Source of the DNA: Microbacterium sp. LWO12-1.2
GTDB lineage: Bacteria > Actinomycetota > Actinomycetes > Actinomycetales > Microbacteriaceae
Assembly: GCF_040675875.1 (NCBI RefSeq)
Contig: NZ_JBEGII010000001.1
Location: 2,604,001-2,668,000, forward strand
Direction of reading: 5' to 3'
Length of the DNA stretch: 64,000 nucleotides
The notes below the pieces were generated by a model. That model searched no databases and was not told the DNA's origin. It saw nothing but the letters and a program-made list of their open reading frames with translations. Numbering within the stretch: position 1 is the first letter of the stretch; each line of letters starts with the position of its first letter. A program made the translations under genes and the position numbers. Positions 3,692 to 52,405 of the stretch are shown here, piece by piece.

Positions 3692-3778
3692 GACGGATCG
3701 CGGAGGCCGTGACGAATCGCGGACCGATTCACGTCGAACACTCCGCGATCCGTCACCACCTCCGCGAATCGTCACCGG
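3692..3778. repeat. Four-unit palindromic repeat, 19-base period (core GACGRATCGCGGA)
   Basis: Forward copies of GACGGATCGCGGAG and GACGAATCGCGGAC begin at 3692 and 3711. Inverted copies CTCCGCGATCCGTCAC and CTCCGCGAATCGTCAC begin at 3741 and 3760. Both pairs are spaced exactly 19 bases. The element lies between two convergent genes, just past a terminator. A GC-rich direct duplication of ACCGGCCGCGCCGCC follows at about 3774-3808. The same architecture with other cores recurs at 34430, 49292 and 52319. Confidence 0.85.
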
Positions 3779-3812
3779 CCGCGCCGCCGCGCCACCGGCC
3801 GCGCCGCCCACC

Positions 3813-5480
3813 TCACTCCCCGGAGTCGTACACCCGCACACCGTCGACCCAGGTGCCGCGCACCTCGGTGAGGCCGATCTCCTCGGCCGGATGCTCGAAC
3901 GGATCCCGGTCGAGCAGGGCGAGGTCGGCGCGCATCCCCACCGCGATCGTGCCGGTGTCGTCGAGGTGGTTCACGCGCGCGGAACCGGCCGTGTACGCGG
4001 CGAGCGCGGTCGCGAGATCGATCGACTGCTCGGGCAGGAACGGGTCATAGTCGCCCTCCCACTCGGTGGGCGCTGAGCGGCGGTTCACGGCGACATGGAT
4101 CGCGGCCATCGGGTTCGGCGTGCTCACCGACCAGTCGCTCCCCGCGGCGAGCGCGGCGCCGGAGCGCAGCAGGTCGCCGAACGGATACTGCCACCCGGTG
4201 CGCCTTTCGCCGAGGAACGGGATGGTCAGGTCGACCATCTGCGGCTCCAGGGTCGCCCACAGCATCTGCATGTTCGCGGTGACGTCGAGCGCACGGAAGC
4301 GGGGGAGGTCGTCGGGGTGCACGACCTGGATGTGCGAGATGTGGTGCCGGTTCCCCCGCGGGCCGTTGTGCACGAGCGCAGCCTCGACCGCGTCCAGGCA
4401 CTCGCGCACGGCGCGGTCGCCGATCGCATGGAAGTGCAGCGTGAAGCCGAGGGCGTCGAGCCGGGTCGCCGCCTCCTTGAGCAGCTCGGGTTCGACGAAC
4501 GAGATGCCGGAGTCCTCGCGCGGAAGCCCGTGGCCGTCGCAGTACGGCTCGAGCATCGCGGCGGTGAAGTTCTCGGCCACACCGTCCTGCATGATCTTCA
4601 CGCTGCGCGCGCGGAACCGCCCGACCGTGCCGGCGTCGCGGCGGGCCACGATCTCGTCGATCTGCTCCAGCCCGCGCGAACGGTCCCACCACAGCGAGCC
4701 GACGACCCTGCCGGTCAGTGCACCGGATGCGGCGGCGCTGAGGTAGGCGGGCAGCGGATCTCCCGCATCGCCGTACTCGGTGCCGATGATTGCATCCTGC
4801 CAGGCGGTCACGCCGTAGGAGTGCAGGTGCCGCTGACCCTGCAGCAGCGCCTCGACCAGCCGCTCGGGCGCTTCGACCGGGAGGAGCCGGTTGACCAGCC
4901 CCATCGCACCCTCGTGCAGCGTGCCGCTCGGAGCGCCGTCGGCGTCGCGTTCGATCCGACCGTCCGCGGGGTCGGCGGTGTCGCGGGTGATGCCGGCGAG
5001 TTCGAGCGCGCGCGAGTTGACCCAGGCGCCGTGCCCGTCGCGGTTGGGCAGGAACGCCGGGCGATCGGGCAGCACGGAGTCCAGGTCGGCCGCGGTCGGC
5101 GTGCCGCCGGGGAACGCCGACATCTGCCAGCCGCCGCCGAGGATCCACTCGTCATCCGGATGCTCCGCGGCGTACTCCGCGATCCGCGCCAGATACTCCT
5201 CGCGCGTCGCCAGCGCCGACAAGTCGCAGCGCAGCATGTCGAGCCCACCCCACACCGGATGCACGTGCGCGTCCTGGAACCCCGGCACCAGCAGCCCGCC
5301 GGCCAGGTCCACGACCTCGGTGTCGGGGCCGATCAGCGCCGAGACGTCATGACCGACCGCCGTGATGATCCCGTCCGTCACGGCGACGGCCCGCGCGGTC
5401 GCGCGCGCTCCGTCCGACAGGAACACCCGACCACCCTGCGCGCCACCCGCGAACACCAGATCGGCGAAGACCATCGTCAT
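3813..5480 (-). CDS. Amidohydrolase family protein (YtcJ-like)
   Basis: A 555-residue metal-dependent amidohydrolase. It carries the DAHVHP metal motif near the N-terminus, a candidate carboxylated lysine in SVKIMQDG, histidines in HFHAIGD and HHISHIQ, and the late aspartate in AGSDWSV. This pattern matches the YtcJ/AepA-like subgroup of cytosolic amide or imide hydrolases, whose substrates are mostly unknown. The ATG at 5480 overlaps the potC stop as ATGA, so it is the last gene of the transporter operon. It may release an amine or amino acid from an amide form of the imported compound. Function beyond hydrolase is open. Confidence 0.8.
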   Translation of the reverse strand: MTMVFADLVFAGGAQGGRVFLSDGARATARAVAVTDGIITAVGHDVSALIGPDTEVVDLAGGLLVPGFQDAHVHPVWGGLDMLRCDLSALATREEYLARIAEYAAEHPDDEWILGGGWQMSAFPGGTPTAADLDSVLPDRPAFLPNRDGHGAWVNSRALELAGITRDTADPADGRIERDADGAPSGTLHEGAMGLVNRLLPVEAPERLVEALLQGQRHLHSYGVTAWQDAIIGTEYGDAGDPLPAYLSAAASGALTGRVVGSLWWDRSRGLEQIDEIVARRDAGTVGRFRARSVKIMQDGVAENFTAAMLEPYCDGHGLPREDSGISFVEPELLKEAATRLDALGFTLHFHAIGDRAVRECLDAVEAALVHNGPRGNRHHISHIQVVHPDDLPRFRALDVTANMQMLWATLEPQMVDLTIPFLGERRTGWQYPFGDLLRSGAALAAGSDWSVSTPNPMAAIHVAVNRRSAPTEWEGDYDPFLPEQSIDLATALAAYTAGSARVNHLDDTGTIAVGMRADLALLDRDPFEHPAEEIGLTEVRGTWVDGVRVYDSGE

Positions 5481-6361
5481 CCTCCCGCCATCGTGCGGGC
5501 GATCTCGGTGGCCGAGTCCCCCGCTCTCTTCAGAACCACCGCGACCAGCGCGAGCGCCAACAGCGTGAGCACCAGCATGATCGTCGACACCGCCGCGATC
5601 TCCGGGCGCAGTCCGCTGCGGAGCGCGCTGAGCACATACACCGGCCACGGCGTGGTGCCCGAGACCTGTACGAACGCCGAGACGACCGTGTTGTCGAGGC
5701 TGAGCGTGAACGACAGCAGGAACCCGGCGAGCACGGCCGGCATCGCGAGCGGCAGCGTGACCTTCAGGAAGGTCCGCACCGGCGGGGCATAGAGGTCGGC
5801 GGATGCCTCCTCCAGCCGCGCATCGAGTCCGACCAGGCGGGCCCGCACGATGTACGACACGATCGCGATCGAGAACAGCGACTGCCCGACCACGAGTCTC
5901 ATGGTGCCGTCGTTGAACAGCCCGAGTCCGACATCCTGCCCGAGGAAGACGAGCCAGGGCAGCAGGGCGACGGCATCCACGATCTCGGGTGTGACCGAGA
6001 CCAGCAGCAGCAGGCCGAGGAACCACCACACCCACTTGCCGGGGTTGCGAGCCATCGCGATGCCGGCCAGCGTGCCCAGGGCTGTGGCGAGCAGAGCCGC
6101 GAGGAGTCCTGTGCGCACCGACACCAGCACGGCGTCGCGGATCGCCGGCTTCTCGACGATCGCCAGGAACGACTCGAAGCCGAAGTGGTCCCACGACACC
6201 AGCAGACGGCCGACGTTGAACGAGTAGGCGATGATCACGAGGATCGGCAGGAACAGGAACACGAACACGATCGCGGCCCAGATCGGCAGCACGAATCGGC
6301 CGGCACCCCGGCGAACCCGCGGCGCATCGGATTTCTGCGGAGCATCCGTGATGGCGGTCAT
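5477..6361 (-). CDS. potC: Polyamine-type ABC transporter permease, PotC-like
   Basis: A 294-residue inner-membrane permease with about six hydrophobic segments. After a charged N-terminal tail the first helix begins near residue 24 (FVLPIWAAIVFVF). The coupling loop towards the ATPase is EEASADLYAPPVRTFLKVTLPLAMP, the EAA motif of binding-protein-dependent importers, given here in shortened form as EEASADL. Family relatives import spermidine or putrescine. It overlaps potB by four bases and the amidohydrolase by four bases, so all are one transcript. Substrate is inferred from family and from the neighbouring gamma-glutamylamine genes. Confidence 0.85.
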   Translation of the reverse strand: MTAITDAPQKSDAPRVRRGAGRFVLPIWAAIVFVFLFLPILVIIAYSFNVGRLLVSWDHFGFESFLAIVEKPAIRDAVLVSVRTGLLAALLATALGTLAGIAMARNPGKWVWWFLGLLLLVSVTPEIVDAVALLPWLVFLGQDVGLGLFNDGTMRLVVGQSLFSIAIVSYIVRARLVGLDARLEEASADLYAPPVRTFLKVTLPLAMPAVLAGFLLSFTLSLDNTVVSAFVQVSGTTPWPVYVLSALRSGLRPEIAAVSTIMLVLTLLALALVAVVLKRAGDSATEIARTMAGG

Positions 6362-7242
6362 GATCCCTCCCCCAGGACGAGTCGATTTCTTTGTCGCAGC
6401 GGCAGCGTCACGAGCCAGAGCAACCCGGCGGCCACGGCGATCGAGAGCATGATGACGATGATCAGCAGCACGGCCATCGCGGATCCCAGCGCCCAGTTCT
6501 GCGCGGTCTGGAACTGGCTCGCCACGACCTGACCGATCATGTTTCCCTTCGCGCCGCCGAGCACTGTGGCGGTGATGTAGTCGCCCATGAGCGGGATGTA
6601 CACCAGCAGCACGCCGGCGATGATGCCTGGTCGGGCCAGCGGCACCGTCACGCGCAGGAAGGTCGACACGCTCCCCGCCCCGAGGTCCTTGCTGGCCTCT
6701 CGCAGGGGACCGGATACGCGGTCGAACGCGACGAACAGCGGCAGGATCATGAGCGGCAGGTAGTTGTAGACCACCCCCAGCAGTACGGCGCCGCGCGAGT
6801 AGAGCAGATCGAGTGGACCGGGGATCACCCCGATGCCCTGCAGCAGCTGCGACAGCCACCCCTCCGGCGCCAGGATCACCTGCCAGCCGATCGTGCGCAC
6901 CAGGAAGTTCGTCCAGAACGGCACCATCACCAGAGCGAGCAGCAGCCCGCGCTTCGACGGAGGAGCCTTCACGGCGATCCAGTACGCCACCGGGGCACCG
7001 ATCACCAGACACAGCACGGTGCCGAGGATGCCGATCCACAGCGTGTTCAGGAACGTGCTGAAGAACGTCGGCGACAACGCCTCGAGGTACCGGTCGAACG
7101 ACAGCTGGTCGAGGGCGTGCGTGGCGAAGATGCTGGGCTTGTAGCCGAAGCTGAACACCGCGACCATGAAGATCGGGGCGACGAAGAAGATGAGCAGCCA
7201 CGCCCAGGCAGGGATGGCGAGACCGAACTTGAGCTTAGGCAC
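6358..7242 (-). CDS. potB: Polyamine-type ABC transporter permease, PotB-like
   Basis: A 294-residue permease with about six membrane segments and the EAA coupling loop REASKDLGAGSVSTFL around two thirds of the protein. It pairs with the PotC-like permease to form the membrane channel of the importer. The ATG at 7242 lies inside the last codons of potD (eight-base overlap), and its own stop overlaps the potC start as ATGA. Length and helix layout are normal for PotB-type subunits. The specific substrate cannot be read from the channel subunits. Confidence 0.85.
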   Translation of the reverse strand: MPKLKFGLAIPAWAWLLIFFVAPIFMVAVFSFGYKPSIFATHALDQLSFDRYLEALSPTFFSTFLNTLWIGILGTVLCLVIGAPVAYWIAVKAPPSKRGLLLALVMVPFWTNFLVRTIGWQVILAPEGWLSQLLQGIGVIPGPLDLLYSRGAVLLGVVYNYLPLMILPLFVAFDRVSGPLREASKDLGAGSVSTFLRVTVPLARPGIIAGVLLVYIPLMGDYITATVLGGAKGNMIGQVVASQFQTAQNWALGSAMAVLLIIVIMLSIAVAAGLLWLVTLPLRQRNRLVLGEGS

Positions 7243-8413
7243 CGGCGGCCGCCTTCATCGAGTTCCAGATCGAGACGACGCGGTCCTGTGCATCCGTCAG
7301 TTTGCCCTCGTGCATGGTCTCCACCTGCTTCTCGTCGAAGAACACCATGTCGAGCCGCTCCAGCCCCGCAGCCTCCGCCTCTTCGCGGATGCCGCTGATC
7401 CCGGTGTCGTAGCCGATGTAGTCGACCTGCGCGAGCTGCACGTCGGGCTGCAGCACGAAGTTGATGAACGCGTGCGCGGCCTCCGGATGCGGAGCTCCGG
7501 CGGCGATGGCCCAGTTATCCATCCACAGCTCCGTCGCCGGGCTGCCGAGCACCCACTGCCAGCGGTCGGGATCGCCGGACTCGAAGATGCCCAGACGCGC
7601 GTCGCCGTTGTACGACTGCAGCAGCGCATGCGAGCCCTGCGGGATCGACGAGCCACCGGGGTACGAGTCGAACGCCGAGACGTGCGGAGCGAGATCCTTC
7701 ACTAGGAACTTCTCGACCGCATCGAGGTCGCCGGGGTCCGTGGTCGTCCAGTCGATGCCGTTCGCCCAGAAGTAGATGCCGAGCAGCGGGGCCGGATCGT
7801 CGAGCACCGACGTCGACCCTGAGGCCTCGTTCTGGGCGGCGTCGATGAAGTCGCTCCAGGTCGTGAGGTCGCGCGAGATGACCGACTTGTCGTAGACGAA
7901 GCCCGTCGTGCCCCACGCCTTGCACACCGAGTACTCGTTGCCGGGGTCCCAGGAGCGCCCGCGGAACTCCGGCGCCACGTGCGACATGTTCGGGATCAGA
8001 TCGAGGTTGAACTTCTGCAGCAGCCCGTTCTCGGCCATGGGCCCGACGAAGACGCCGGTGGGTACGACGATGTCGTAGCCGGAGGTGCCGCGCGCGGCGA
8101 CCAGCTTGGCGATCAGCTCCTCGTTCGAGTTGAACGCGTCGAGCACGATGCGGGGGCCGCTCTCGGCCGTGAACTGCTCGAGCACTTCGGGAGCGTCGTA
8201 GTCACCCCAGCTGTAGATCGAGAGCCGATCCTCCAGCGGTCCGCCCTTGGCGTGCACCGCGGCGGCGTTCTGGCCCGGCGTGCAGGCCGTGAGCAGCACG
8301 GCCCCGCCCGCGGCGAGCGCGGTCGCCAGGAATCCGCGGCGGGTGAGCTCGGTGCGGATCACCCGCGCGGCGCTCCGGTGCGCGAGGACGCGGACCGGAG
8401 GCGCACCCGTCAC
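7235..8413 (-). CDS. potD: Polyamine-type ABC transporter substrate-binding lipoprotein, PotD-like
   Basis: A 392-residue extracytoplasmic binding protein. The N-terminal signal has TRRGFLATALA followed by the lipobox LTAC, so it is probably a Tat-exported lipoprotein anchored by the cysteine. The mature part starts with LSIYSWGDYDAPEVLEQF, typical of PotD/PotF spermidine-putrescine binding proteins. The start is GTG at 8413 because it overlaps the potA stop as GTGA; an upstream reading frame exists but lies wholly inside potA. It captures the substrate for PotB/PotC. Putrescine, spermidine or a related amine are the likely ligands. Confidence 0.87.
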   Translation of the reverse strand: MTGAPPVRVLAHRSAARVIRTELTRRGFLATALAAGGAVLLTACTPGQNAAAVHAKGGPLEDRLSIYSWGDYDAPEVLEQFTAESGPRIVLDAFNSNEELIAKLVAARGTSGYDIVVPTGVFVGPMAENGLLQKFNLDLIPNMSHVAPEFRGRSWDPGNEYSVCKAWGTTGFVYDKSVISRDLTTWSDFIDAAQNEASGSTSVLDDPAPLLGIYFWANGIDWTTTDPGDLDAVEKFLVKDLAPHVSAFDSYPGGSSIPQGSHALLQSYNGDARLGIFESGDPDRWQWVLGSPATELWMDNWAIAAGAPHPEAAHAFINFVLQPDVQLAQVDYIGYDTGISGIREEAEAAGLERLDMVFFDEKQVETMHEGKLTDAQDRVVSIWNSMKAAAGA

Positions 8414-9570
8414 CGGCCGTCCTCCTTCGGCAGCGCGATCACGTGCGTGGCGGTGGTGGGGATGCCGTCGGCGGCGAAGAGTCGGGCGTCGGCCGGATCC
8501 CACAGGCAGCGCACCTCATCGTCGACCTCGACGCTCGGAGCGGTGGGCGCCGGCATCCGCGACAGGAAGGTGGCGTCTCCGGCGACGCGCACCGCGACCT
8601 GCAGGGTCTCGCCGAGGTGCGAGACGCCGAGCACACGGCCAGGAACTCCCGCACCATCGCCGTGCTCCAGTCGCACGTACTCCGGGCGGACGGCGGCGAC
8701 GGCCGGCTGCCCGGCCGCGACGCGCTCCCCACCCCAGCGGCCGGCGATCGCACCGATCGCGGTGTCGACCGCATCGCCGTCTGCGAGCACCGTGCCGTGC
8801 ACGAAGTTCTGCTGCCCGATGAACGAGGCGACGTAGGCGGATGCCGGTTCGGCGTAGATCGCGGCCGGGGCGTCGAGCTGCTCGATCCGGCCCGCACGCA
8901 TCACCGCGATCCGGTCGCTCATCGACAGGGCCTCGGCCTGGTCGTGCGTGACGAACACGAACGTGGTGCCCAGCCGCGCCTGCAGCAGCTTGAGTTCGAG
9001 CTGCATCTCTTCGCGCAGCTGGCGGTCGAGGGCGGCGAGCGGCTCGTCGAGCAGCAGCACGCTCGGCCGGTTGATCAGGGCGCGGGAGAGTGCGATGCGC
9101 TGCTGCTGGCCGCCCGAGAGCTGGGTCGGCTTGCGGTCGGCGAAGCTGCGCAGCTGCACCATGTCGAGCGCTTCGCTCACCCGCTCGCGCTGTTCGGCCT
9201 TCGGAACACGGCGCTGCTGCAGCCCGTATGCCACGTTCTCGGCGACCGTGAGGTGCGGGAACAGGGCATAGGCCTGGAAGACCGTGTTGACCTCGCGCCG
9301 ATACGGCGGCAGGTTCAGCACGCTGCGTCCCGAGATGCGGATGTCACCGGCATCCGGGTACTCGAAGCCGGCGATCATGCGCAGCGTCGTGGTCTTGCCG
9401 CAGCCGGACGGACCGAGCAGCGACAGGAACTCCCCCGGTTGCACGTGAAGGGTCAGATCGTCGACCGCGACGGCCGATCCGTAACGCTTGGTGACGCCGT
9501 CGATGTGGACGGCGCCGGTGGTGGCGGGCGCCTCGGGCGTCGCCGTCGAAGCAGGCAGGGTGCCGGGCAT
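8410..9570 (-). CDS. potA: Polyamine-type ABC transporter ATP-binding protein, PotA-like
   Basis: A 386-residue ABC ATPase, first gene of the five-gene operon. Visible motifs are Walker [10 protein letters not shown], the signature [15 protein letters not shown], Walker [12 protein letters not shown] and the switch histidine in [11 protein letters not shown]. The C-terminal third (about residues 250-380) is a TOBE-type regulatory domain. It powers import through PotB/PotC. The ATG at 9570 is preceded on its strand by GGGGAGG. A 136-base region with two inverted repeats precedes it. Length is typical of PotA. Confidence 0.9.
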
Positions 9571-10435: not shown

Positions 10436-10468
10436 GCTTTCACCTTGTCACAGCGAGGTGTGCGGATC

Positions 10469-25141: not shown

Positions 25142-25153
25142 GCTTAAAAGAAG

Positions 25154-25271
25154 TCCGGCGGTGTCCTACTCTCCCACAGGGTCCCCCCTGCAGTACCATC
25201 GGCGCTGTGAGGCTTAGCTTCCGGGTTCGGAATGTAACCGGGCGTTTCCCTCACGCTATGGCCGCCGAAAC
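25154..25271 (-). rRNA. rrf: 5S ribosomal RNA
   Basis: Read on the minus strand, about 118 bases begin at GTTTCGGCGGCCATAGCG and end at GACACCGCCGGAC. They include the conserved CCCGAACCCGGAAGCTAAG-like loop (here TTCCGAACCCGGAAGCTAAG). It is the third rRNA of the operon, about 108 bases after the 23S 3' end. Exact termini are uncertain by one or two bases. Confidence 0.95.
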
Positions 25272-25379
25272 ACTATTGATGTTTCAATCAAACACATAAC
25301 AAAGTCATTGTTGTTATGCGGTTCTCGACCGTACATCGAGAACCACTCAGTGGACGCGTAGCACCAACAAACGGTGTGT

Positions 25380-30420
<5,041 letters not shown>

Positions 30421-30675
30421 AAAAAGAAATGCATACCCCACCGGGAAAACGGTGACGCAGCGAGTTTGATGCTGACCAAAGAGACAAATTCATTGCTGAC
30501 TTCATCCATTGCCAACCCCCCGGAAGGGATTGGTCTTTGATCCAAAGGAATTCTCACCCAGCCGAAGCTAGACGAGGATAATTTGGCATTTGACAAGTGC
30601 ACGCTGTTGAGTTCTCAAGGATCGGATGCTCCCACGACCCAGTCATCACAACCAGGCCCGAAGGGCAACTTCTCT

Positions 30676-32116: not shown

Positions 32117-33787
32117 TCAGACCGTACGGCCGGCCTCGATCCGCACGACGCGGTCGACGGTCCCGATCGGAGGGGCGACGTGCGAGATGAGCAGCACCGA
32201 CTGCTCTCCTGCGGCCTCCAGCAGGTCGCCCAGCAGGGCATCGGATGCCGCGGGGTCGACTCCCGCGGTCGGCTCATCGAGCACCAGCACCGGGAATCCG
32301 CGCAGCAGCGCCCGCGCCAACGCGATGCGCTGCGCCTGCCCGCCCGACACCAGCGCTCCCCGGTCTCCGACGCGTGCGTCCAACCCGCCCCGCTCGCGCA
32401 CCCAGTCTCCGAGCCCGACCCGGGCGAGCACGGCGTCCAGCTCGCCATCGCTCGCGGTCTCGCGCGCGAACAGCAGGTTCTGACGGATGTCCTCGTCGAA
32501 CAGCTGAGGGCTCTGCTCGCACAGGCCGATCGTGCGCCGCAGCTGCGGCCCCGACAGCTCAGCCGCGCTCACGCCGTCGAGCGTGTACTCGCCCTCCACC
32601 CGCAGGAAGCCGACGAGCGCCGCCGCGAGCGAGCTCTTGCCGGCACCGCTGGGACCGGAGACGAGCACCCGTTCGCCCGGACGCAGGTCGAGATCGACAC
32701 CCCGCAGCCCCGGTGCTCCCCCGGGCCAGGTGACGTGCACATCGCGCAACCGCAGCGTCGGCGTTCCCTCGAGAGCTGCATCCGCGCCCCGGTCGTCGCG
32801 GAGCTGTTCCGGCATCCGCTCCGGGAGCACATCGACGATGCGCTCGGCGCTGGCGCGCACGCTCCGCCACGATGCGGCTGCGATCGGCACGGCCCCGAAC
32901 ACCTCGAACACGACCATCGGCACCAGCACGGCCACCGCCAGCCAGGGGCCGTCGATCGCCCCTGTCACCAATCCGGGGGCGGCACCGGCCAGTGCCCAGA
33001 CCGACGCCGCGCCCGCGACCGCCGAGACGACGCCGGCGGCCACGGCCTGCGCGAGCGACGCTCGGCCCACGACCCGGCGCAGGGCGGCATCCGCCGCGGT
33101 GATCCGGGCGCGGGCTTGCTCCTCGGCACCGTAGGCCAGCAGCACGTCGAGGCTTCCGAGGTAGTCGACGAGCGCGGCGGACAGCTCGGCCCGGCGCGCG
33201 GAGACGAGTGCCTCAGCCCTGGACCCGAACAGCCACCCCATCCCCACGGCCGCCGCCGCGGCGACCAGCAGGCATACGGCGAGGGTCAGCGCGGCGGTCG
33301 GCGAGACGAAGGCGATGAACCCGACAGCTCCGACGGCGACCAGGCCCGACACCGCGAGCGGCTGCACCACCCGCAACGGGAGGTTCTGCAGATTGTCGAC
33401 GTCATCGACCAGAGCCGACAGCACGTGACCGCGATCGGTCGCGCCGAGCCCGGCCGGCGAGAGCGGGATGAGCCGGCGCACCATGTCGGCGCGGGTCGTG
33501 GCCAGCTGACGCAGTGCGGCGTCGTGTCCGCTCAGCCGCTCGAGGTAGCGCAGCACGGCGCGCGAGACAGCGAAGAAGCGCACGCCCACGACCGCGATCG
33601 ACAGCGGCACGAGCGAGTCGACGATCGAGGCGCTCACGATCAGCCACCCGCTCACCGCGAGCAGGCTGACCGCCGCTCCGGCCGACAGTGCGCCCCATAG
33701 CAACCCGGGCAGGAAGCGGCGCAGCGGTGGCTGGGCGAGCTGCAGCACGGAGCGCACCCGTGCGCGACGGGATTCGACGACGCTCAT
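32117..33787 (-). CDS. cydC: Cysteine/glutathione-type ABC exporter subunit CydC for cytochrome bd assembly
   Basis: A 556-residue half-transporter fused to an ATPase. The first half has about six membrane helices (for example LLWGALSAGAAVSLLAVSGWL region) with the CydC-typical RFFAVSRAVLRYLERLSGHD, given here as RAVLRYLERLSGHD. The ATPase has Walker A GPSGAGKSS, signature VSGGQAQRIALARAL and Walker B VLVLDEPTAG. The ATG overlaps the cydD stop as ATGA. CydC and CydD together export reduced thiols and are needed for cytochrome bd. It is the last gene of cydABDC. Confidence 0.92.
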   Translation of the reverse strand: MSVVESRRARVRSVLQLAQPPLRRFLPGLLWGALSAGAAVSLLAVSGWLIVSASIVDSLVPLSIAVVGVRFFAVSRAVLRYLERLSGHDAALRQLATTRADMVRRLIPLSPAGLGATDRGHVLSALVDDVDNLQNLPLRVVQPLAVSGLVAVGAVGFIAFVSPTAALTLAVCLLVAAAAAVGMGWLFGSRAEALVSARRAELSAALVDYLGSLDVLLAYGAEEQARARITAADAALRRVVGRASLAQAVAAGVVSAVAGAASVWALAGAAPGLVTGAIDGPWLAVAVLVPMVVFEVFGAVPIAAASWRSVRASAERIVDVLPERMPEQLRDDRGADAALEGTPTLRLRDVHVTWPGGAPGLRGVDLDLRPGERVLVSGPSGAGKSSLAAALVGFLRVEGEYTLDGVSAAELSGPQLRRTIGLCEQSPQLFDEDIRQNLLFARETASDGELDAVLARVGLGDWVRERGGLDARVGDRGALVSGGQAQRIALARALLRGFPVLVLDEPTAGVDPAASDALLGDLLEAAGEQSVLLISHVAPPIGTVDRVVRIEAGRTV

Positions 33788-35520
33788 ACGCTCACCCCCA
33801 GCGCGATGACCTGGTCGGCGATCTCCCGCGCGGACCGGCGGTGCGAGACCAGCACGATCGTAGCGCCGGCATCCGCTCGCTCCCGCAGCGTCGTCCACAG
33901 CCGCGCCTCGGTCTCGGGGTCGAGAGCGCTGGAGGGTTCGTCGAGCGCGAGCACACGTCGGAGATCCCGCGCGTGCCGGTAGAGCGCCCTGGCCACGGCG
34001 ACCCGCTGGGCCTGTCCGCCCGAGAGCCCCGCTCCCTGCACGCCGAGCTCGAGAGCAGGATCGATGGTCTCCGCGCACGCGGCGTCGAGCGCCGTGCGGA
34101 TACCGACGGCATCCGGGGCAGGGTCACCGAGCGCGACATTGGCTCCGACCGTTCCGCGCAGGAGCCCCGGTGCTTGTCCGGCCCAGGCGAGCCAGGCGGC
34201 CGGGTCGAGCTGCCGCACGTCGCGGCCGCGGGAGAGGGCGGAACCCTCGAATGCCGCCGCACCCCGCAGCGCCGCGAGCAGACTCGACTTCCCCGCCCCG
34301 CTGGGACCCTCGATCAGCGTGATCGTTCCCTGCTCGGCGGTGAAGGAGACGCGAGGCAGGTCACGGACGCGCAGTCCCTCGACGACGAGCGCCGCACCGG
34401 CATCCGCCGCGGCATCCGCATCCGCCGTCTGCAGGATCGATGGCCGAGTGCAGGAGGAATCACCGGTGTTTGCTCCTGCAGATGGCGGATGCTCCTGCAG
34501 ATAGGCACCCCCACCGGACCCACCGGACCCACCGGCGCCACCGGACGCACCGACAACCGGTGCCGACGACACCTCCCCTGCCTCATCCAGCACGGCGAAG
34601 ATGTCCTCGGTCGCGGCGACGCCCTCAGCGGCGGCGTGGAACTGCACGCCGACCTGCCGGATCGGGAGGAAGGCCTCGGGCGCGAGCAGCAGCACGAACA
34701 GCCCCACCTCGAGCGACAGGTCACCGGACAGCAGCCGGAACCCGACGGACACCGCGATCAGCGCGACCGCGAGCGAGGCGAGCAGCTCCATCGCGAAGCC
34801 GGACAGGAACGAGAACCGCAGCACCTTCATGGTCTCGCGGCGGTACTCGTCGGCCGTCGACTCGATCCGGTCGGCGGCGCGCTGCTCGCGTCCGAACAGC
34901 CGCAGCGTCGCGAGGCCCTGCACCGTGTCGGCGAATCGCACGGCGAGCCGCTGCAGCGTGTGCCACTGCTTCTGCTGCACGGTGCGGGTCGCGATGCCGA
35001 TCAGGATCAGGAACAGCGGGATCAGCGGCAGTGTGATGGCCGCGGTCAGTCCGCTCGGCCAGTCCTGCCACCACATCACCGCGAGCACCACGGGCGTCGC
35101 GATCACGGTCAGCACCAGTTGCGGGATGTAGCGCGCGAAGTAGGAGTCGAGCGCCTCCAGCCCGTGCCCCGCGGTGACGGCCAGAGCCGTGCGGTTGCGC
35201 TGCGCGAGCCAGCCGGGGCCGAGGCGGCCGACGGCGCGGATCAACGCGGCACGCAGCTGCATCCCGGTCTTCGCGGCCGCGCGGGTGCCCGCCGCATCCG
35301 ACGCCGCGATCAGCAGTCCGCGCAGCAGCGCCACCGCGAGCAGCCACAGCAGGGATGCCGTGACATCGCGCCCCGCGAGCGCGCCGGTGACGGCATCCGT
35401 CAGCAGCCAGGCGAACACGATGACGACCGCGGTCTGGGCCACGCCGATCAGCGCGGATGCCACGAGGAACCCCCTCGCGGCACCCGCGTAGCGCAGCAGT
35501 CTCGGATCGACGGGTTTCAC
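33784..35520 (-). CDS. cydD: Cysteine/glutathione-type ABC exporter subunit CydD for cytochrome bd assembly
   Basis: A 578-residue half-transporter. Residues about 1-310 form the membrane part, including the coupling-loop motif QGLATLRLFGRE. The ATPase follows with Walker A GPSGAGKSS, signature LSGGQAQRVAVARAL and Walker B LALDEPSSALD. Between them residues about 318-376 form an unusually long linker: glycine-serine runs, then residues 340-364 encoded by a four-unit 19-base-period DNA repeat, then alanine/aspartate repeats. The start is GTG at 35520, overlapping the cydB stop as GTGA. The insertion keeps frame and all motifs, so the protein is probably active. Confidence 0.92.
   Translation of the reverse strand: MKPVDPRLLRYAGAARGFLVASALIGVAQTAVVIVFAWLLTDAVTGALAGRDVTASLLWLLAVALLRGLLIAASDAAGTRAAAKTGMQLRAALIRAVGRLGPGWLAQRNRTALAVTAGHGLEALDSYFARYIPQLVLTVIATPVVLAVMWWQDWPSGLTAAITLPLIPLFLILIGIATRTVQQKQWHTLQRLAVRFADTVQGLATLRLFGREQRAADRIESTADEYRRETMKVLRFSFLSGFAMELLASLAVALIAVSVGFRLLSGDLSLEVGLFVLLLAPEAFLPIRQVGVQFHAAAEGVAATEDIFAVLDEAGEVSSAPVVGASGGAGGSGGSGGGAYLQEHPPSAGANTGDSSCTRPSILQTADADAAADAGAALVVEGLRVRDLPRVSFTAEQGTITLIEGPSGAGKSSLLAALRGAAAFEGSALSRGRDVRQLDPAAWLAWAGQAPGLLRGTVGANVALGDPAPDAVGIRTALDAACAETIDPALELGVQGAGLSGGQAQRVAVARALYRHARDLRRVLALDEPSSALDPETEARLWTTLRERADAGATIVLVSHRRSAREIADQVIALGVSV
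34430..34503. repeat. Four-unit palindromic repeat, 19-base period, inside cydD (core TGCAGGA)
   Basis: TGCAGGA begins at 34430 and 34449, and GCTCCTGCAGAT begins at 34472 and 34491. Both pairs are 19 bases apart and in opposite orientation. It has the same layout as the intergenic elements at 3692, 49292 and 52319 but sits in frame in a protein linker. Confidence 0.82.
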
Positions 35521-44816: not shown

Positions 44817-44916
44817 GCTGTGACTCCTTATTCGCACGGGGCGAAGCGCTGACGCCGATGACGTTCTCTGCGCCTGTACATCGAGAGTAACCACCGCGCA
44901 GGGCAGGTATGCCCGT

Positions 44917-44932: not shown

Positions 44933-44979
44933 GTGGGGCCACCGCGGGCGGGCTGACGGGGCCCGCGCGGCGTCGGGGG

Positions 44980-47053: not shown

Positions 47054-47286
47054 GCCCTGCCGAGAACGACGACGAGCTCACCGGCATCCACTGCCGTCTC
47101 GACGAGCTGCTCGCCGAGCGCGGCATGACGCTGACCGAGCTGAGCGCCCGTGTCGGCGTCAGCATCGTGAACCTCTCGGTGCTCAAGAACGACCGTGCGC
47201 GCGCCATCCGCTACTCCACGCTGCGGGCGATCTGCGACGCGCTGGACTGCGAGGTCGGCGAGCTCCTGGTGCTCTCCGACCGCTGA
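47050..47286 (+). CDS. Small XRE/Cro-type regulator (YozG-like)
   Basis: A 78-residue helix-turn-helix protein with a GTG start in the last codon of the preceding gene. CRLDELLAERGMTLTELSAR is followed by the recognition segment VGVSIVNLSVLKNDRARAIRYSTL, shortened here to SIVNLSVLKNDRARAI, and by ICDALDCEVGELLVL. This is the HTH_26 type that habitually accompanies DUF2975 proteins. It probably represses its own operon through the TTATCG/CGATAA sites upstream of the first gene. Confidence 0.85.
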   Translation: MSPAENDDELTGIHCRLDELLAERGMTLTELSARVGVSIVNLSVLKNDRARAIRYSTLRAICDALDCEVGELLVLSDR

Positions 47287-47292
47287 AACCCG

Positions 47293-47652
47293 TCAGACGG
47301 CGTGAGGCGGCGGGGTCGGTGCAGCGGGGGCCGGCGCGAGCGGCTCCACGACGACCGCCGTGCCGTACGCGCAGATCTCGGTGAAGTTCTGGATCGAACC
47401 GGCATCGAACCGCATCGCGACGATCGCGTTGCCGCCGCGCTGCTGCGCCTGATCCCACATGCGCGCCATCACGACCTGCCGCGCCTCGTACATCACCTGC
47501 GTGTACTCGGGGATCTCGCCTCCCCCCAGAGAGCGGAAGCCCGCGGCGAAGCCCTGTCCGAAATCGGTCGAGCGCACCGTGAGACCCATCACCTCTCCCA
47601 GCACCTGGGTGATGCGGTAACCGGGGATGTCGTTCGTCGTCACCATGAACAT
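47293..47652 (-). CDS. YbjQ/UPF0145-family (heavy-metal-binding domain) protein
   Basis: A 119-residue protein of the YbjQ type, a small pentamer-forming beta/alpha domain. It shows MVTTNDIPGYRITQVLGEVMGLTV, of which TTNDIPGYRI and VLGEVMGLTVRS are the family hallmarks, then ARMWDQAQQRGGNAIVAMRFD and a proline-rich tail. Start 47652 is chosen because relatives begin just before VTTN; ATG 47646 and ATG 47694 are alternatives, none with a good ribosome site. It converges on the XRE gene with six bases between stops. Its role is unknown. Confidence 0.8.
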   Translation of the reverse strand: MFMVTTNDIPGYRITQVLGEVMGLTVRSTDFGQGFAAGFRSLGGGEIPEYTQVMYEARQVVMARMWDQAQQRGGNAIVAMRFDAGSIQNFTEICAYGTAVVVEPLAPAPAAPTPPPHAV

Positions 47653-47788
47653 GAGGCCATCGTGCCAGACACTCCCGCGACCGGCAGTCGTCATGGTTCG
47701 TCATCTCAGTCGCCGGAATGAAAACGCCCTCATAGCGTTGAGCGTTATGGCGTGCACTCGGCACGTCGCGATTCTGGAGTCCCCCACC

Positions 47789-49207
47789 ATGAGCACTACC
47801 GTCCGCGCCCAGAAGGCGCCCGACACCCGCGGACCGATCCGGAAGCTGCTGACCTCGTTCGGCTTCCAGATCCTCGCAGCCCTCGTCCTCGGCGTCGCCG
47901 CCGGTCTCATCGGCCGCCAGCTCGGCGCCACCGCCGAGAACCCGAACGGACTGTCCGCGACCCTCGACACGATCGGCAGCTCCTACGTGACGCTGCTGCG
48001 CGCGGCCGTCGTCCCGCTGATCTTCACCGCGATCGTCGCGAGCATCTCGAACCTCCGCCGCGTGCAGAACGCTGCCCGCCTGGCCGGACAGACCCTGCTG
48101 TGGTTCGCGATCACCGCGTTCATCGCCGTGGTCATCGGCATCACGCTCGGCCTCGTCATCCAGCCGGGCTCCCGTGCGGGTGAAGGCCTGCAGACGGGCG
48201 ACCCGTACACGGTCGGCACGTGGTGGAACTTCCTCCTCGGGCTCATCCCTCAGAACTTCCTCGGCCTCAGCGTCGGTACGCAGGTCGATCTCGAAGCCGG
48301 CACCGCAGCATCGAGCGTCAGCTTCAACATCCTGCAGGTCATCGTCGTCGCCGCGGCCGTGGGCATCGCCGCCCTCAAGGCCGGCAAGAAGGCGGAGCCG
48401 TTCCTGGCCTTCACCGAGTCGCTGCTCAAGGTCATCCAGCGGGTGCTGTGGTGGATCATCCGCATCGCACCGATCGGCACCTTCGGCCTGATCGGTGCCG
48501 CGGTCATCAAGTACGGCTGGGAGAAGCTCGCCGCGCTCGGCTGGTTCGCGATCGCGATCTACATCGGTCTCGCGCTGGTGCTGTTCGTCGTCTACCCGAT
48601 CCTGGTCAAGACGCATGGACTGTCGATCAAGCAGTACTTCTCCGGTGTGTGGCCGGCCGTGCAGCTCGCCTTCGTCAGCCGCTCGTCGATCGGCACCCTG
48701 CCGCTCACGGAGCGCGTGACCGAGCGCAACCTGGGCGTGCCCCGCTCCTACGCCTCGTTCGCCGTGCCGTTCGGTGCGACCACGAAGATGGACGGCTGCG
48801 CCGCGATCTACCCGGCCATCGCCGCGATCTTCGTCGCGCAGTTCTTCGGCATCGAACTGAACTTCGTGCAGTACCTGCTGATCGTCATCGTCTCGGTCGT
48901 CGGTTCCGCCGCCACCGCCGGCACCACCGGCGCGATCGTGATGCTCACGCTCACGCTGTCGACCCTGGGTCTGCCGCTCGAGGGCGTCGGACTGCTGCTC
49001 GCGATCGACCCGATCCTCGACATGGGCCGCACCGCGGTCAACGTCGCGGGCCAGGCACTCGTGCCGACCATCGTCGCCAAGCGCGAGGGCATCCTGAACG
49101 AGGAGCTCTACAACGCTCCCCGCGAGGGCCTGCCGTTCGCGGATGACGCCGACGACGACACGGATGACGACGCCACCGCGGCCGCGGAGCCCGCAGCCGC
49201 GCGCTGA
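47789..49207 (+). CDS. Dicarboxylate/amino acid:cation symporter (SDF/DAACS family)
   Basis: A 472-residue glutamate-transporter-fold symporter with about eight membrane helices and two re-entrant loops. It contains the serine-rich hairpin SRSSIGTLPLT, the cation site TTKMDG (NMDG-like, first residue changed) and the transport-domain end DPILDMGRTAVNVAG. The C-terminal tail is acidic (DDADDDTDDD). GGAG lies nine bases before the ATG. Substrates are likely C4-dicarboxylates or acidic/neutral amino acids taken up with Na+ or H+. It stands alone and ends in a strong hairpin. Confidence 0.88.
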   Translation: MSTTVRAQKAPDTRGPIRKLLTSFGFQILAALVLGVAAGLIGRQLGATAENPNGLSATLDTIGSSYVTLLRAAVVPLIFTAIVASISNLRRVQNAARLAGQTLLWFAITAFIAVVIGITLGLVIQPGSRAGEGLQTGDPYTVGTWWNFLLGLIPQNFLGLSVGTQVDLEAGTAASSVSFNILQVIVVAAAVGIAALKAGKKAEPFLAFTESLLKVIQRVLWWIIRIAPIGTFGLIGAAVIKYGWEKLAALGWFAIAIYIGLALVLFVVYPILVKTHGLSIKQYFSGVWPAVQLAFVSRSSIGTLPLTERVTERNLGVPRSYASFAVPFGATTKMDGCAAIYPAIAAIFVAQFFGIELNFVQYLLIVIVSVVGSAATAGTTGAIVMLTLTLSTLGLPLEGVGLLLAIDPILDMGRTAVNVAGQALVPTIVAKREGILNEELYNAPREGLPFADDADDDTDDDATAAAEPAAAR

Positions 49208-49223
49208 CCCCGCACCCTCCTCC

Positions 49224-49266
49224 ACGCGAGCGCCTCGCCCCCTCCCGGGGCGGGGCGCTCTCGCGT
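49224..49266 (+). terminator. Terminator after the symporter gene
   Basis: ACGCGAGCGCC at 49224 pairs with GGCGCTCTCGCGT ending at 49266 with a CGCCCC/GGGGCG inner stem. It begins 17 bases after the stop codon. Confidence 0.8.
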
Positions 49267-49291
49267 ATGCCCGGGCCCGGCTCGCACGTGC

Positions 49292-49379
49292 GCCGAGACC
49301 CACCGGCCCCGCCGAGACCCACCGTCGCAGGCGTCTGGGGCGATGGGCCTCGGCGACGGTGATGGGTCTCGGCGGCGGT
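49292..49379. repeat. Four-unit palindromic repeat, 19-base period (core GCCGAGACCCAYC)
   Basis: GCCGAGACCCACCG begins at 49292 and 49311; GATGGGCCTCGGC and GATGGGTCTCGGC begin at 49342 and 49361. Both pairs are 19 bases apart. The element fills the gap between the symporter terminator and the end of the convergent antiporter gene. The rest of the gap up to 49430 is GC-rich with GCGGCGG runs and no gene. Confidence 0.87.
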
Positions 49380-49430
49380 GGGCAGGTGCTGCGGATGCTG
49401 CGGCGGCGGCAGAGGCGGCGGTGCGCGGGG

Positions 49431-51161
49431 CTATGCCCGACCGGGCTGGCGGGTCGCGCCGCGGGTGTCGAGGGCGAGCTCCTCGGCATCCATCGCGGCG
49501 ATCAGCTCGCGCATCAGCTCCTCGTCGAGCTCACCGGCGTCGCGCTCCTGCAGCAGGATCTCGCGCCGCACCTGCAGCCACCCCTTGGTCAACGCCACGA
49601 GGTCTTCGTACGACGGCCGAGGCACCGTGTCCTCGACCTCCTGGGCGGCATCGGTGTCCTTCTCCACACGACTCATGCGCTTCGTGAACGCATCGAACAC
49701 GCTGAGGTCGACCGCCCCGTACTTCTCTTCCCACTCCACGCGCTTCTCGGCGAGATAGGCCTTGCCGGCCTCCCTGCTCTTCTCCCTCACCGCAGCGAGA
49801 GCACGCTCGTCGTCTTCGTGGTCGACGTCACCCTCGATGCCCAGGCTGCGGATGAGGAGCGGCAGCGTCAGCCCCTGAAACAGGAGCGTCCCGACCGTCA
49901 CGATGAAGGCGACCACCACGATCGCGTGCGAGGCCTCGGTGTCGAGAGTCGCGAGGTCGGCCGCCGCGAGCGCGATGGCCAGGGTGACCACCCCTCGCAT
50001 GCCGGCCCAGGAGATGACCGCACTGTCCTTCCACGTGAGCTGCAGTCCCGCCATCTGCTCCCGCACGATGTGGGTGCGCAGCTCATCCGCCGTGTACTTT
50101 CCCCACCGGCGGCTCCGGCGATGCCGCTTCTCGAACTCCCCCGACTCGACGCCACGGTCCCAGCGCTCGAGCCGCTTGCGGTCCTGGAAGTTCGCCCATG
50201 CGCTCGTGGGGTAGATGTAGAGGGGCCGCACGATCAGCACGACCAGCAGCACCGCGCCGGACAGCATCAGAATCTGCTCGACCGACTCGCTGCCCAGGTC
50301 ACGCAGCACGCGCGGGAACTGCAGTCCGATGTATGCGAACACGAAGCTCTCCAGCAGCAGATCCGCCGAGAGCCACAGCGGCTTCTCCTGCTGTCGGGTC
50401 GTGTAGTCCGTGCGCGGGGAGTTGAATCCGACGTAGAGTCCCATCGCGACGACCGCGAGCACGCCCGAGCCGAGGAGGTGCTCCGCGATCGCGTAGGCGC
50501 CGAACGGGGCGAGCAGTCCGAAGGTGCCGATCACCACCGGGTCGCTGATGCGCATGCGCAGCTGGTGCAGCACGATGCCGAACACCAGGCCGATCACGAC
50601 GCCGATCACCACGGCCAGCAGGAACTGTCCGACACCGCCCCAGACCGAGACCGTCGCACCGGCGAGGATCGCCGCGAACACCCGGTACAGCGTGAGCGAG
50701 GTCGCGTCGTTGATCAGGCTCTCTCCCGAGAGCACGGTCATGATGCGGCGGGGCAGCCCGAGCTTGCGTCCGATCGCCGCGGCTGACACCGCGTCGGGTG
50801 GTGCGACGATCGCGCCGAGCAGCATCGCACCGGGGAGCCCCAGCGAGGGCATGATCCACCACGCGGCGAAACCCACCGCGACAGCGGTGATCAGCACGAG
50901 CCAGATGCCCAGCCGACGGATCTGCGGCAGGCTGCGCTTGAAGCCGACGAACGAGACGTCGAGCGCGGCGGAGTAGAGCAGCGGCGGCAGCACCAGGCTG
51001 AGGAGCACGTGGCCATCGATGTCGAGATCAGGCACGAAGGGGAGGAAGGATGCCGCGAGCGCGACGACCGTCACCAGCAGAGGAGCCGGCCACCCGCGCC
51101 AGCGCGCGAACGCGGCGACGGCTACTGCTCCGACGAGGACGTAGAAGATCCCGGCTTCCAT
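49431..51161 (-). CDS. Na+/H+ antiporter, CPA1 family
   Basis: A 576-residue antiporter with about twelve helices in the first 420 residues and a long acidic, helical cytoplasmic tail. Typical motifs are GAIVAPPDAVSAAAIGRKLGLP around the ion-binding aspartate, SGESLINDATSLTLYR with the second conserved acidic residue, and WAGMRGVVTLAIALA. It exports Na+ in exchange for protons. A GGAGG lies only one base before the chosen ATG, and no other start is evident, so initiation is unusual. The start lies 53 bases from that of the divergent oxidoreductase. Confidence 0.9.
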   Translation of the reverse strand: MEAGIFYVLVGAVAVAAFARWRGWPAPLLVTVVALAASFLPFVPDLDIDGHVLLSLVLPPLLYSAALDVSFVGFKRSLPQIRRLGIWLVLITAVAVGFAAWWIMPSLGLPGAMLLGAIVAPPDAVSAAAIGRKLGLPRRIMTVLSGESLINDATSLTLYRVFAAILAGATVSVWGGVGQFLLAVVIGVVIGLVFGIVLHQLRMRISDPVVIGTFGLLAPFGAYAIAEHLLGSGVLAVVAMGLYVGFNSPRTDYTTRQQEKPLWLSADLLLESFVFAYIGLQFPRVLRDLGSESVEQILMLSGAVLLVVLIVRPLYIYPTSAWANFQDRKRLERWDRGVESGEFEKRHRRSRRWGKYTADELRTHIVREQMAGLQLTWKDSAVISWAGMRGVVTLAIALAAADLATLDTEASHAIVVVAFIVTVGTLLFQGLTLPLLIRSLGIEGDVDHEDDERALAAVREKSREAGKAYLAEKRVEWEEKYGAVDLSVFDAFTKRMSRVEKDTDAAQEVEDTVPRPSYEDLVALTKGWLQVRREILLQERDAGELDEELMRELIAAMDAEELALDTRGATRQPGRA

Positions 51162-51213
51162 GCCTCCACGGTAGTGGGGAATGCGGCGCCCGGAACGTGC
51201 GTTGCAGAGGGGG

Positions 51214-52263
51214 ATGTCCGATACAGCTCTCTCCGTCCTCGACCTCGTGCCGGTGCGCACCGGTCAGACCAGCACGGAGGCCATCGCCGCCTCCCTCGAC
51301 CTCGCCGAGACCGCCGACCTTCTCGGCTATCGCCGCTACTGGTTCGCCGAGCACCACAACATGCCCGCCGTGGCATCCACCACTCCTCCGGTGCTGATCG
51401 CCGCTGCGGCGACCCGCACGAGCCGGATCCGTCTGGGTTCCGGCGGCGTCATGCTGCCCAACCACGCACCGCTGATCGTGGCGGAGCAGTTCGCGGCCCT
51501 CGAGGCCATCGCCCCCGGACGCATCGACCTCGGTCTCGGCCGCGCGCCCGGCAGCGACCCCGTCATCACGCAGCTGCTGCGCGGCTCCGGCACGACCAGC
51601 GACGTCGAGCAGTTCCCGCGGCACGTGCAGGACATCGCGGCCCTGCTCTCGGGTGACGGCGCGACCTTGCGCTTCACGTCGGGCGGCGAGTACATCGTGC
51701 GCGCGACCCCGTCCGCGACCGGGGTGCCCGAGGTCTGGCTGCTCGGATCCAGCGACTACTCCGCGCAGCTCGCGGCATCCCACGGCCTGCCGTACGTGTT
51801 CGCGAATCATTTCTCCGGCCAGGGTCTGGAGCGCGCGCTCGACCTGTATCGCACCGGCTACCAGCCGAGCGAGGAGCACCCGGAGCCGCGTACCTTCCTC
51901 ACCGTCAATGTGGTGGCGTCGCCGACCGCCGAGGAGGCGGAGGCCCGCGCGCTCCCCCAGCTGCGGATGATGGCGCGGCTGCGCCTGAACAAGCCGCTCA
52001 CCGCGCTGGAGACCGTGGAGGAGGCGATCGCCGCCGGCATCGCCGAAGCGGATGCCGCCACCGATCAGGTCGTGCAGGGCGCGCGGTCGCGCTGGTTCGT
52101 CGGCACCGGAGAGTCGGTCGCCGCCGAGGTACGCGACTTCGCCACGCGCTACGGGGTGGACGAGGTCATGGTCTCCCCCGTCGCCGGTGCGTACGAGGCC
52201 GAGCCGAAGTCATCCGCTGCGGGCCGCGCGCAGACGCTCGAACTCATCGCCGCCGCCCTCTAG
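51214..52263 (+). CDS. LLM-class flavin-dependent oxidoreductase
   Basis: A 349-residue luciferase-like TIM-barrel monooxygenase, probably using reduced FMN or F420. SVLDLVPVRTGQTSTEA at the start, YWFAEHHNMPAVAST, LGSGGVMLPNHAPL and GLGRAPGSDP are marks of the YhbW/MsnO8-like single-component subgroup. The start ATG 51214 is preferred over 51181 because relatives begin just before LSVLDLVP and AGAGGGGG precedes it. The substrate cannot be told. Monocistronic, followed by a repeat cluster. Confidence 0.85.
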   Translation: MSDTALSVLDLVPVRTGQTSTEAIAASLDLAETADLLGYRRYWFAEHHNMPAVASTTPPVLIAAAATRTSRIRLGSGGVMLPNHAPLIVAEQFAALEAIAPGRIDLGLGRAPGSDPVITQLLRGSGTTSDVEQFPRHVQDIAALLSGDGATLRFTSGGEYIVRATPSATGVPEVWLLGSSDYSAQLAASHGLPYVFANHFSGQGLERALDLYRTGYQPSEEHPEPRTFLTVNVVASPTAEEAEARALPQLRMMARLRLNKPLTALETVEEAIAAGIAEADAATDQVVQGARSRWFVGTGESVAAEVRDFATRYGVDEVMVSPVAGAYEAEPKSSAAGRAQTLELIAAAL

Positions 52264-52318
52264 CCCCGCCGCGCTGCGCCTGCGCCGCCGCCGCGCTGCG
52301 GCGCTGCCGCTGCGGCGC

Positions 52319-52405
52319 CGAGTGCACGACCTGGCGTCGAGTGCACGACCTGCTCACGTCGACATCCCGTGCACTCGGCGCGAAGCCGTGCACTCGGCGT
52401 CGACA
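52319..52405. repeat. Four-unit palindromic repeat, 19-base period (core CGAGTGCACG)
   Basis: CGAGTGCACGACCTG begins at 52319 and 52338; CGTGCACTCGGCG begins at 52368 and 52387. Both pairs are exactly 19 bases apart and inverted relative to each other. A GC-rich low-complexity run of CGCTGCGGC-type sequence (52268-52318) precedes it. The rest of the gap up to 52488 shows no gene. Confidence 0.87.

Follow-up and report, generated by a model that had tools for sequence, protein, structure and literature searches.

Four repeat quartets with a 19-bp period in Microbacterium sp. LWO12-1.2 point to an undescribed nuclease-plus-repeat system with DUF559 genes

Among described systems, the closest to the repeats treated here are the repetitive extragenic palindromic sequences (REPs): the available excerpts of PMC2817692, PMC3733652 and PMC8266576 depict a gene that is flanked by its own repeats, repeats that are also dispersed in intergenic places, co-evolution of gene and repeat, and a presence of the gene that goes with the abundance of the repeat. 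One of these sources, again as excerpted, also treats CGTC-tagged REPs, dispersed palindromes reportedly without a dedicated transposase (PMC3733652). A second type of system worth comparing is that of the EDxHD homing enzyme I-Bth0305I, which the excerpted text of PMC3943268 gives as a dimer on a target of nearly 60 bp. Here we describe repeats in a 64,000-nucleotide stretch of Microbacterium sp. LWO12-1.2 (contig NZ_JBEGII010000001.1, positions 2,604,001 to 2,668,000; hereafter the window), each of which is a quartet, that is, forward, forward, inverted and inverted copies of a short core about one dyad. The four quartets of the window are probably solo members of several repeat families, each belonging to one gene of a multi-copy DUF559 family whose nuclease spreads or maintains the quartets. 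This points to an undescribed nuclease-plus-repeat system in Microbacterium, the best reading of which is a REP-like system with an enzyme unrelated to the REP-associated tyrosine transposases (RAYTs). We found no published link between nuclease and repeat in open-licence PubMed Central papers, a search that lay outside subscription papers and most preprints.

An earlier note on this DNA had picked out four loci in which two copies of a core, and then two inverted copies, start 19 bases apart. A scan for a word that occurs twice and then twice more in inverted orientation, run over the window with the spacing left free between 12 and 45 bp, confirmed this, as at a word length (k) of 7 it returned exactly these four loci, all at 19/19, and no match in 20 shuffles of the window. 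Quartet A (3689..3776; no strand is assigned to any of the four) has a GACGRATCGCGGA-type core with forward copies at 3692 and 3711 and inverted copies at 3742 and 3761; quartet B (34421..34508) has the core TGCAGGA at 34430 and 34449, inverted at 34474 and 34493; quartet C (locus 49292; 49289..49376) has the core CGAGACCCACC at 49294 and 49313, inverted at 49342 and 49361; and quartet D (52314..52401) has the core CGAGTGCACG at 52319 and 52338, inverted at 52368 and 52387. When the window was pooled with 20 stretches of 20 kb from the same genome (464 kb in all; the density of quartets in this sample is biased, since nine stretches were chosen for a match to the first locus and only 11 were evenly placed), 14 of 14 equal-spacing matches at k=7 and 17 of 18 at k=6 were at 19/19, and three shuffled sets gave 0 and 3 such matches, respectively. 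With a mismatch-tolerant detector at a threshold of 16, the 19-bp spacing gave 27 quartets and each spacing of 15-18 and 20-23 bp none or one; at laxer thresholds of 13-14 the other spacings yielded noise of comparable size. The note had further taken the geometry to be constant and the cores to be unrelated. The constancy holds for the k=7 matches of this genome, but a second class with an 18-bp period exists and is tied to other protein clades; and while 8-9 bases of the cores do differ by family, the cores are not wholly unrelated, as a CG step in each unit and a central CG recur.

A Pfam scan of 30 genes neighbouring quartets of this genome turned up, between two A quartets, one gene whose product combines DUF559 with an AbiEi-type helix. 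Pfam recognises seven DUF559 genes in the genome; a profile of the family gives 12 matches, which correspond to about nine genes and some remnants. In four of the seven, both flanks carry the same core. Core A stands on both flanks of the nuclease gene at C1:1771215 and TGCAGGA on both flanks of that at C1:1915096; the gene at C1:947484 is flanked on both sides with an 18-bp period, and the gene at C1:607366 has TGCACG on both flanks (it was omitted from the 36-locus count given below, its open frame overrunning the usual end). The remnant of a gene at C1:2188048 has core C on both flanks, and the split gene at C1:389438 bears another core, on one side at the threshold used. Three of the window quartets can be assigned in this way: the core of quartet A is that of C1:1771215 (likeness 8.34 of 19 matches, runner-up locus 7.44), the core of quartet B that of C1:1915096 (8.78, with a thin margin over the runner-up at 8.5), and the core of quartet C that of the remnant at C1:2188048 (9.16, runner-up 7.28).

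DUF559 matches were present in all 59 genus genomes sampled, and we scored quartets beside 36 loci, seven from the own genome and 29 from other genomes, the best-scoring ones per genome. At a threshold of 14, quartets stood on both flanks of 18 of the 36 (11 at 19 bp and seven at 18 bp, without overlap), and at 17, 20 and 21 bp on both flanks of none. Among control genes from unbiased stretches of the own genome the count was 0 of 174 (Fisher 2e-16 against 18/36); among those from all own stretches it was 1 of 290, that one being the DUF559 gene in L017, and at the loci of relatives 2 of 338. Leaving out L164, the locus that gave rise to the idea, changed the count to 17 of 35. With the threshold unchanged, fresh loci gave both-flank quartets in 7 of 20 and then, in a second and mixed set, in 7 of 20 (in which L277 repeats L177, L266 is from another genus of the family, and several are distant relatives); neither set had any at 15-17 or 20-23 bp. 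A looser threshold of 13.5 gave 39 of 75 loci, 24 of them with the 19-bp and 15 with the 18-bp period. For these 39 genes the downstream quartet begins a median of 19 nt past the stop codon and the upstream quartet ends a median of 91 nt before the estimated start. The flanking core is gene-specific and common to both sides: at the 11 loci with the 19-bp period the two flanks matched at 9.7-13.5 of 19 positions (mean 11.5), and comparisons between loci averaged 7.0 and never exceeded 10.1. At the level of sequence, the association of gene and quartet and the identity of the core are established by these counts; the flanking tests compare mostly different genes, and the shuffles and the reversed-pattern control used below ignore shared ancestry among loci of one gene. 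Between the stop codon of the A nuclease gene and its downstream quartet (L164:1807-1880) we also saw, by eye, degenerate TGACGGA units in steps of ~19-21 bp.

The DUF559 protein has about 280 residues and consists of an N-terminal AbiEi-type winged helix, a middle part with the invariant residues C68, H87, H107 and C130, and a C-terminal Vsr-like nuclease domain of the PD-(D/E)xK/EDxHD type. In an alignment of 32 of the 36 proteins (A2; unclear ends or long open frames led to the omission of L169, L182, L194 and L199) the catalytic-type residues E181, D208, D220, R231, D234 and D238 are invariant in all 32. The DUF559 model matched all of these 32 members, the MTES_1575 nuclease model 27 and AbiEi_4 10; no NCBIfam model matched any of them, and the AbiEi models of PADLOC gave weak matches, to up to 14 of the 32 for one model. 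A profile search against the PDB found 3hrl (1.4e-8) and the mobile-intron protein 3r3p (0.002), which we take to be I-Bth0305I, over ~80 C-terminal residues. The relatives are numerous, with 1315 at an E-value of 0.001 or better among 7043 candidates scored. MTES_1575 itself is named, in the excerpted text of PMC3710099, after a protein of >2000 residues with a Vsr domain.

Both the period and the core of the quartets vary together with the protein. Quartet period follows protein clade: on a quick maximum-likelihood tree with labels for 22 of the 32 proteins (those with a summed flank score of 26 or more), the 18/19-bp label changes twice, against a minimum of 4 and a mean of 7.2 changes in 300 shuffles. 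Similarity of the proteins and similarity of the cores were correlated over 39 genes (Mantel r 0.27, 0 of 2000 permutations). The A gene lies between the same neighbours (93-97% and 78-79% identical) in five genomes, namely G000 (the own genome), G106, G089, G014 and G029, and its flanking core takes the forms GACGGATCRCGGA, GACGTTTCGCGGA (in two of them), GACGATTCACGGA and, in G029, GACGATYCCCCGA; the B gene, with both neighbours common to four loci, has TGCAGGA in the own genome and TGTCGGG in two others. In G029, the one genome that allowed this comparison, the dispersed quartets track the genome's own version of the core: over 400 kb taken at even steps, both A-like solo quartets (L321 and L326) have, imperfectly, the CCCCGA-type core of its own gene, and two further quartets, L323 and L331 (the latter in the exporter linker described below), carry TGTCGGAC/GGC like its other gene. 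The exporter-linker quartet reads TGCAGGA in G000 and TGTCGGAC in G029, paralleling the genes of the two genomes at one shared locus, which have TGCAGGA and TGTCGGGC. Pairs of A cores occurred in 9 of 119 genomes and, with the reversed pattern as a control, in 0 of 119. They were present in four of the five genomes that have an A gene of at least 70% identity, taken as close by a cut-off set after viewing the list (pairs beside the gene are counted), and in 5 of the 114 others (Fisher 8e-5, for core A only), or in three of four when the own genome is set aside. As far as comparison of sequences can carry it, co-variation at the gene and in trans (G029) is established, and pairing and co-evolution of nuclease and quartet are well supported.

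The 59 quartets with an even dyad, out of 64, align about the dyad as a gapless block of 88 columns (A1; five with an odd dyad were left out); they come from several families and from the own and other Microbacterium genomes. The A core has unit steps of 19, 31 and 19, and odd dyads are common in gene-flank quartets (13 of 30 at 18 bp and 30 of 48 at 19 bp). A CG step recurs in the four units of 54, 50, 50 and 50 of the 59 quartets and a central CG in 44 (CG makes up 15% of the dinucleotides of the window), and the bases that vary by family are the 8-9 lying 3' of each CG step. We found no lone half-element (two forward units at 19 bp without inverted partners) in a list for seven cores over the own-genome sample, which held one three-unit case (L014). 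Quartet families are patchy in their distribution among genomes: element D had BLAST matches in 9 of 58 genomes, the own one (G000) included, and a covariance model from the 59 quartets had matches in 49 of the 59 genus genomes, few in most (at most 75 candidates were scored per genome, so that the counts are lower bounds in the richest). An origin in phages or plasmids was considered and set aside, element D having no match in phages or plasmids and element A none in plasmids, where alone it was searched. One gap (L082) holds, by eye, a quartet-like array with 20-bp steps, a spacing found on both sides of no DUF559 gene.

The order of the units could let a quartet fold, and the earlier note had offered a folded RNA as one of the readers of the geometry. 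A quartet selected as a hairpin or cruciform, for example as a bidirectional terminator, would suit the many quartets downstream of convergent genes, and in some (L090 and L092, by eye) the inner arms are well paired. By an indirect comparison, hairpin partners in the 59 quartets show no excess likeness: it was 0.844 and 0.828 for F1-R2 and F2-R1, against 0.860 for F1-F2. Units of family D, the largest class, resemble those of other D elements as closely as those of their own element, and the spacers of paired arms match no better inside one element than across elements. In the A, B and C classes, which are small and mixed (family assignment used simple text matching, with a few elements misfiled), likeness is higher within elements than between, for all pairs of units and not for the pairing arms alone, and in the small B and C classes the F2-R1 spacers match better within (0.60 against 0.37-0.39). 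Quartet B, moreover, sits inside coding sequence, and an Rfam scan of the window matched only the rRNAs. The likenesses of arms and units fit independent protein-binding sites in duplex DNA better than a fold, and we regard the folded reading as very improbable.

The quartets lie mainly between genes, and their placement differs from that of gene junctions at large. Among 29 quartets of the own genome at a threshold of 15, one is within a gene, 14 are between convergent, 11 between tandem and three between divergent genes, and a home-made gene finder, whose calls and start sites are our own estimates, gave 64 convergent, 278 tandem and 62 divergent junctions among 404; the convergent excess (14 of 28 intergenic quartets against 64 of 404 junctions) has a Fisher value of 6e-5 in stretches partly picked by matches to the first locus. 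Quartets A and C of the window are between convergent genes (A following what looks by eye like a terminator-like hairpin), and quartet D is between two genes of the same direction. Locus 34430, quartet B, is not intergenic: it lies in frame within an ABC exporter gene (33784..35520, minus strand; ABC_membrane and ABC_tran), in the linker between the membrane and ATPase domains. By position this coding sequence is called cydD-like, as it adjoins the gene for cytochrome bd subunit II.

Presence and absence at orthologous gaps, which the note had proposed as a check, was seen at both sites that we compared. Among 30 exporter-gene loci, quartets were detected in that of the own genome and in L105, L107 and L114, the last three with other cores; the quartet of L113 looks decayed, the linker was located in 11 of the 30 (minus-strand loci were not flipped), and several others of these 11 linkers carry other palindromes. 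The gap of 49292 lies between genes for an Na/H exchanger and a dicarboxylate symporter, and 31 of 34 fetched loci had both genes; of these 31 relatives, six have a quartet in the gap (a C-type core in four and another core in two), 10 have a gap of just 60-66 bp, and several have, by eye, other palindromes. Since occupancy of the exporter linker and of the 49292 gap varies, quartets come and go between species, and gain and loss can be taken as established. By eye, a divergent DUF559 gene of the own genome (L208, C1:3377155) is flanked by palindromes of a second family (AACTCAGGA...TCCTGAGTT type, with relatives), which in other species also fill both the exporter linker and the Na/H gap; the loci listed for this family are L208, L108, L109, L115, L118, L119, L084, L085 and L089. 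A third family (TCGTTGAGCGAG...GACGAAACG type) occurs in the L106 linker and the L081 gap, i.e., in the same two places.

If the DUF559 nuclease does spread the quartets, as we infer, four protomers would bind a quartet, one per core, as a two-fold symmetric array, and because of this the protein assembly would set the geometry and the winged helix the sequence. The nuclease may then cut within or beside the quartet, perhaps at the central CG; repair of the break or strand transfer could copy quartets to new sites, and copies that the resident protein can bind would be retained. The gene would meanwhile stay at its own locus by vertical inheritance while the quartets disperse. We count as support for copying a pair of near-identical 18-bp quartets 883 bp apart, with no DUF559-like frame between them (L322). 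This keeps part of the interpretation in the earlier note, which had something reading the geometry and a core that is replaceable, and leaves aside its folded RNA and its RAYT: the RAYT transposase domain Y1_Tnp (PF01797) has no match in the own genome, which removes a RAYT as the agent, and what remains of the proposal is a protein-plus-repeat system of the same logic, with a Vsr-like DUF559 nuclease in the part of the enzyme.

Compared with REP/REPIN and RAYT (TnpA-REP) systems, the quartets likewise flank their own gene on both sides (in about half or fewer of the loci at the threshold of 14) and are dispersed at convergent and tandem intergenic sites; gene presence parallels the abundance of the repeat (for core A only), and cores differ with the ortholog. 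Unlike them, the system has a Vsr-like DUF559 nuclease in place of an HUH/Y1 enzyme acting on folded single strands, and its repeat is a four-unit array with a fixed 18/19-bp period and no general pairing signal. Miniature inverted-repeat transposable elements (MITEs) are short, dispersed, non-coding, inverted-repeat elements, and the quartets resemble them in this. Among the quartets, inverted arrays and a gene-bearing form exist; a difference is that no target duplication was recognised (by eye, in one gap), another that mainly the cores are conserved in most copies. The CGTC-tagged REPs, as the excerpted PMC3733652 describes them, are short stem-loops and not quartets, a distinction drawn from description rather than sequence. 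Those palindromes are a possible place for a DUF559-type nuclease.

The likeness to Vsr-like (EDxHD) homing endonucleases such as I-Bth0305I, which extends to a catalytic domain related by profile search, the invariant E, D, D, R, D and D, and a long DNA target, suggests another way in which the same pieces might fit together. In a homing cycle the nuclease would cut solo quartets, repair from a quartet-gene-quartet donor would insert the gene, and recombination between the flanks would delete it again and leave solo quartets behind, much like solo long terminal repeats. The mobile-intron protein among the nearest solved relatives agrees with this, as does the fact that the upstream and downstream quartets of one gene can be near-identical, spacers included (L171, L190, L198 and L272). 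Unlike those enzymes, the DUF559 gene is free-standing, has a winged helix and is flanked by repeats of which dispersed non-coding copies exist, and its target would be a four-fold repeated core. Against a homing cycle stands the position of the gene in the two ortholog groups compared: of the 119 genomes, the five with a close ortholog of the A gene have it at one and the same locus, and the B gene has both neighbours common to the four loci examined. Gene movement therefore looks rare, no new insertion of a gene was caught (though no empty-site search of gene-bearing loci was made), and we consider a homing cycle unlikely.

A reading in which the proteins are DNA-binding regulators or roadblocks of a regulatory or chromosome-structure network, and the quartets sites selected by the host that drift along with the protein, strikes us as equally doubtful. 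It would account for the units of family D behaving as independent draws from one consensus, for cores that by eye appear better kept than spacers in orthologous quartets, and for the convergent excess; against it stand the six invariant catalytic-type residues, the position of quartets within a coding linker, and their gain and loss between species. We find it quite improbable that the genes are an anti-phage or addiction module, of the defence or toxin-antitoxin kind, in which dispersed quartets titrate the nuclease or mark self DNA. The N-terminal AbiEi matches (to Pfam and PADLOC models, as counted above) do suggest such a module together with the nuclease, but in the one member for which the PADLOC matches were listed they are confined to the helix domain, and neither the dispersal of the quartets nor their co-evolution would be explained.

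Several results weigh against the view that each family belongs to a DUF559 gene whose nuclease spreads or maintains the quartets. At the threshold of 14, half of the 36 loci lack a quartet on one or both flanks, as do 13 of 20 in each later set. An order-wide search found a related protein in 34 of 79 genomes, and none of the 29 top loci (two from the genus, two from a sister genus and 25 from other families, mostly distant) had quartets on both flanks. No gene was found for core D, among the best preserved families, in the genome profile matches, the fresh loci or the neighbours, and the genes next to D quartets at 41 loci included no DUF559-like one. In G106 (three stretches picked at A-core matches) the two A-like solos do not discriminate, one being mostly GACGAATC where the gene of that genome has GACGTTTC. 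A-core pairs also occur in five genomes that lack a close A gene, two of which have a single pair. No target-site duplication was recognised by eye in the one gap inspected. Most solo copies share little of their spacer sequence (mean likeness 0.41-0.49 over 28 columns, by family), so that recent copying is visible in few cases and cores seem to be kept or renewed in place, which speaks against simple copying.

A stronger form of the proposal, on which we are divided and which we put forward tentatively, is that of a self-standing prokaryotic gene-repeat class. Its nuclease, Vsr-like and equipped with a fast-evolving winged helix, would read a four-fold core at a fixed 18/19-bp pitch, maintain quartets genome-wide, and drive change of the core in place as its own specificity changes. 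If true, this would be a self-renewing recognition code in bacteria, with dozens of natural protein/core pairs in one genus. A family annotated solely as DUF559 would gain its first testable partner, and the REP/RAYT way of life a second, non-homologous enzyme. Up to 39 natural nuclease/core pairs could serve to study how a winged helix and a multimer set sequence and spacing, and the system may bear on palindromes of other bacteria that have no known transposase.

Core D had no other candidate partners than two DUF222-HNH genes (L032 and L034, at C1:491871 and C1:442687), each of which has a D quartet within ~1 kb, on the upstream side only. We rejected DUF222-HNH as the agent, as the genome has 11 matches, with a quartet near two of them and never on both sides. 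The sampled stretches of the own genome differ in their quartets, in that five 20-kb stretches within C1:0.7-1.52 Mb had none at a threshold of 16.5 and a stretch at 3.6 Mb had five; a regional bias is possible for this quartet-poor arc, yet stretches at 0.3 and 2.5 Mb were also without a quartet. The window further contains rRNA genes (5S, 23S and 16S) on the minus strand at 25153-30422.

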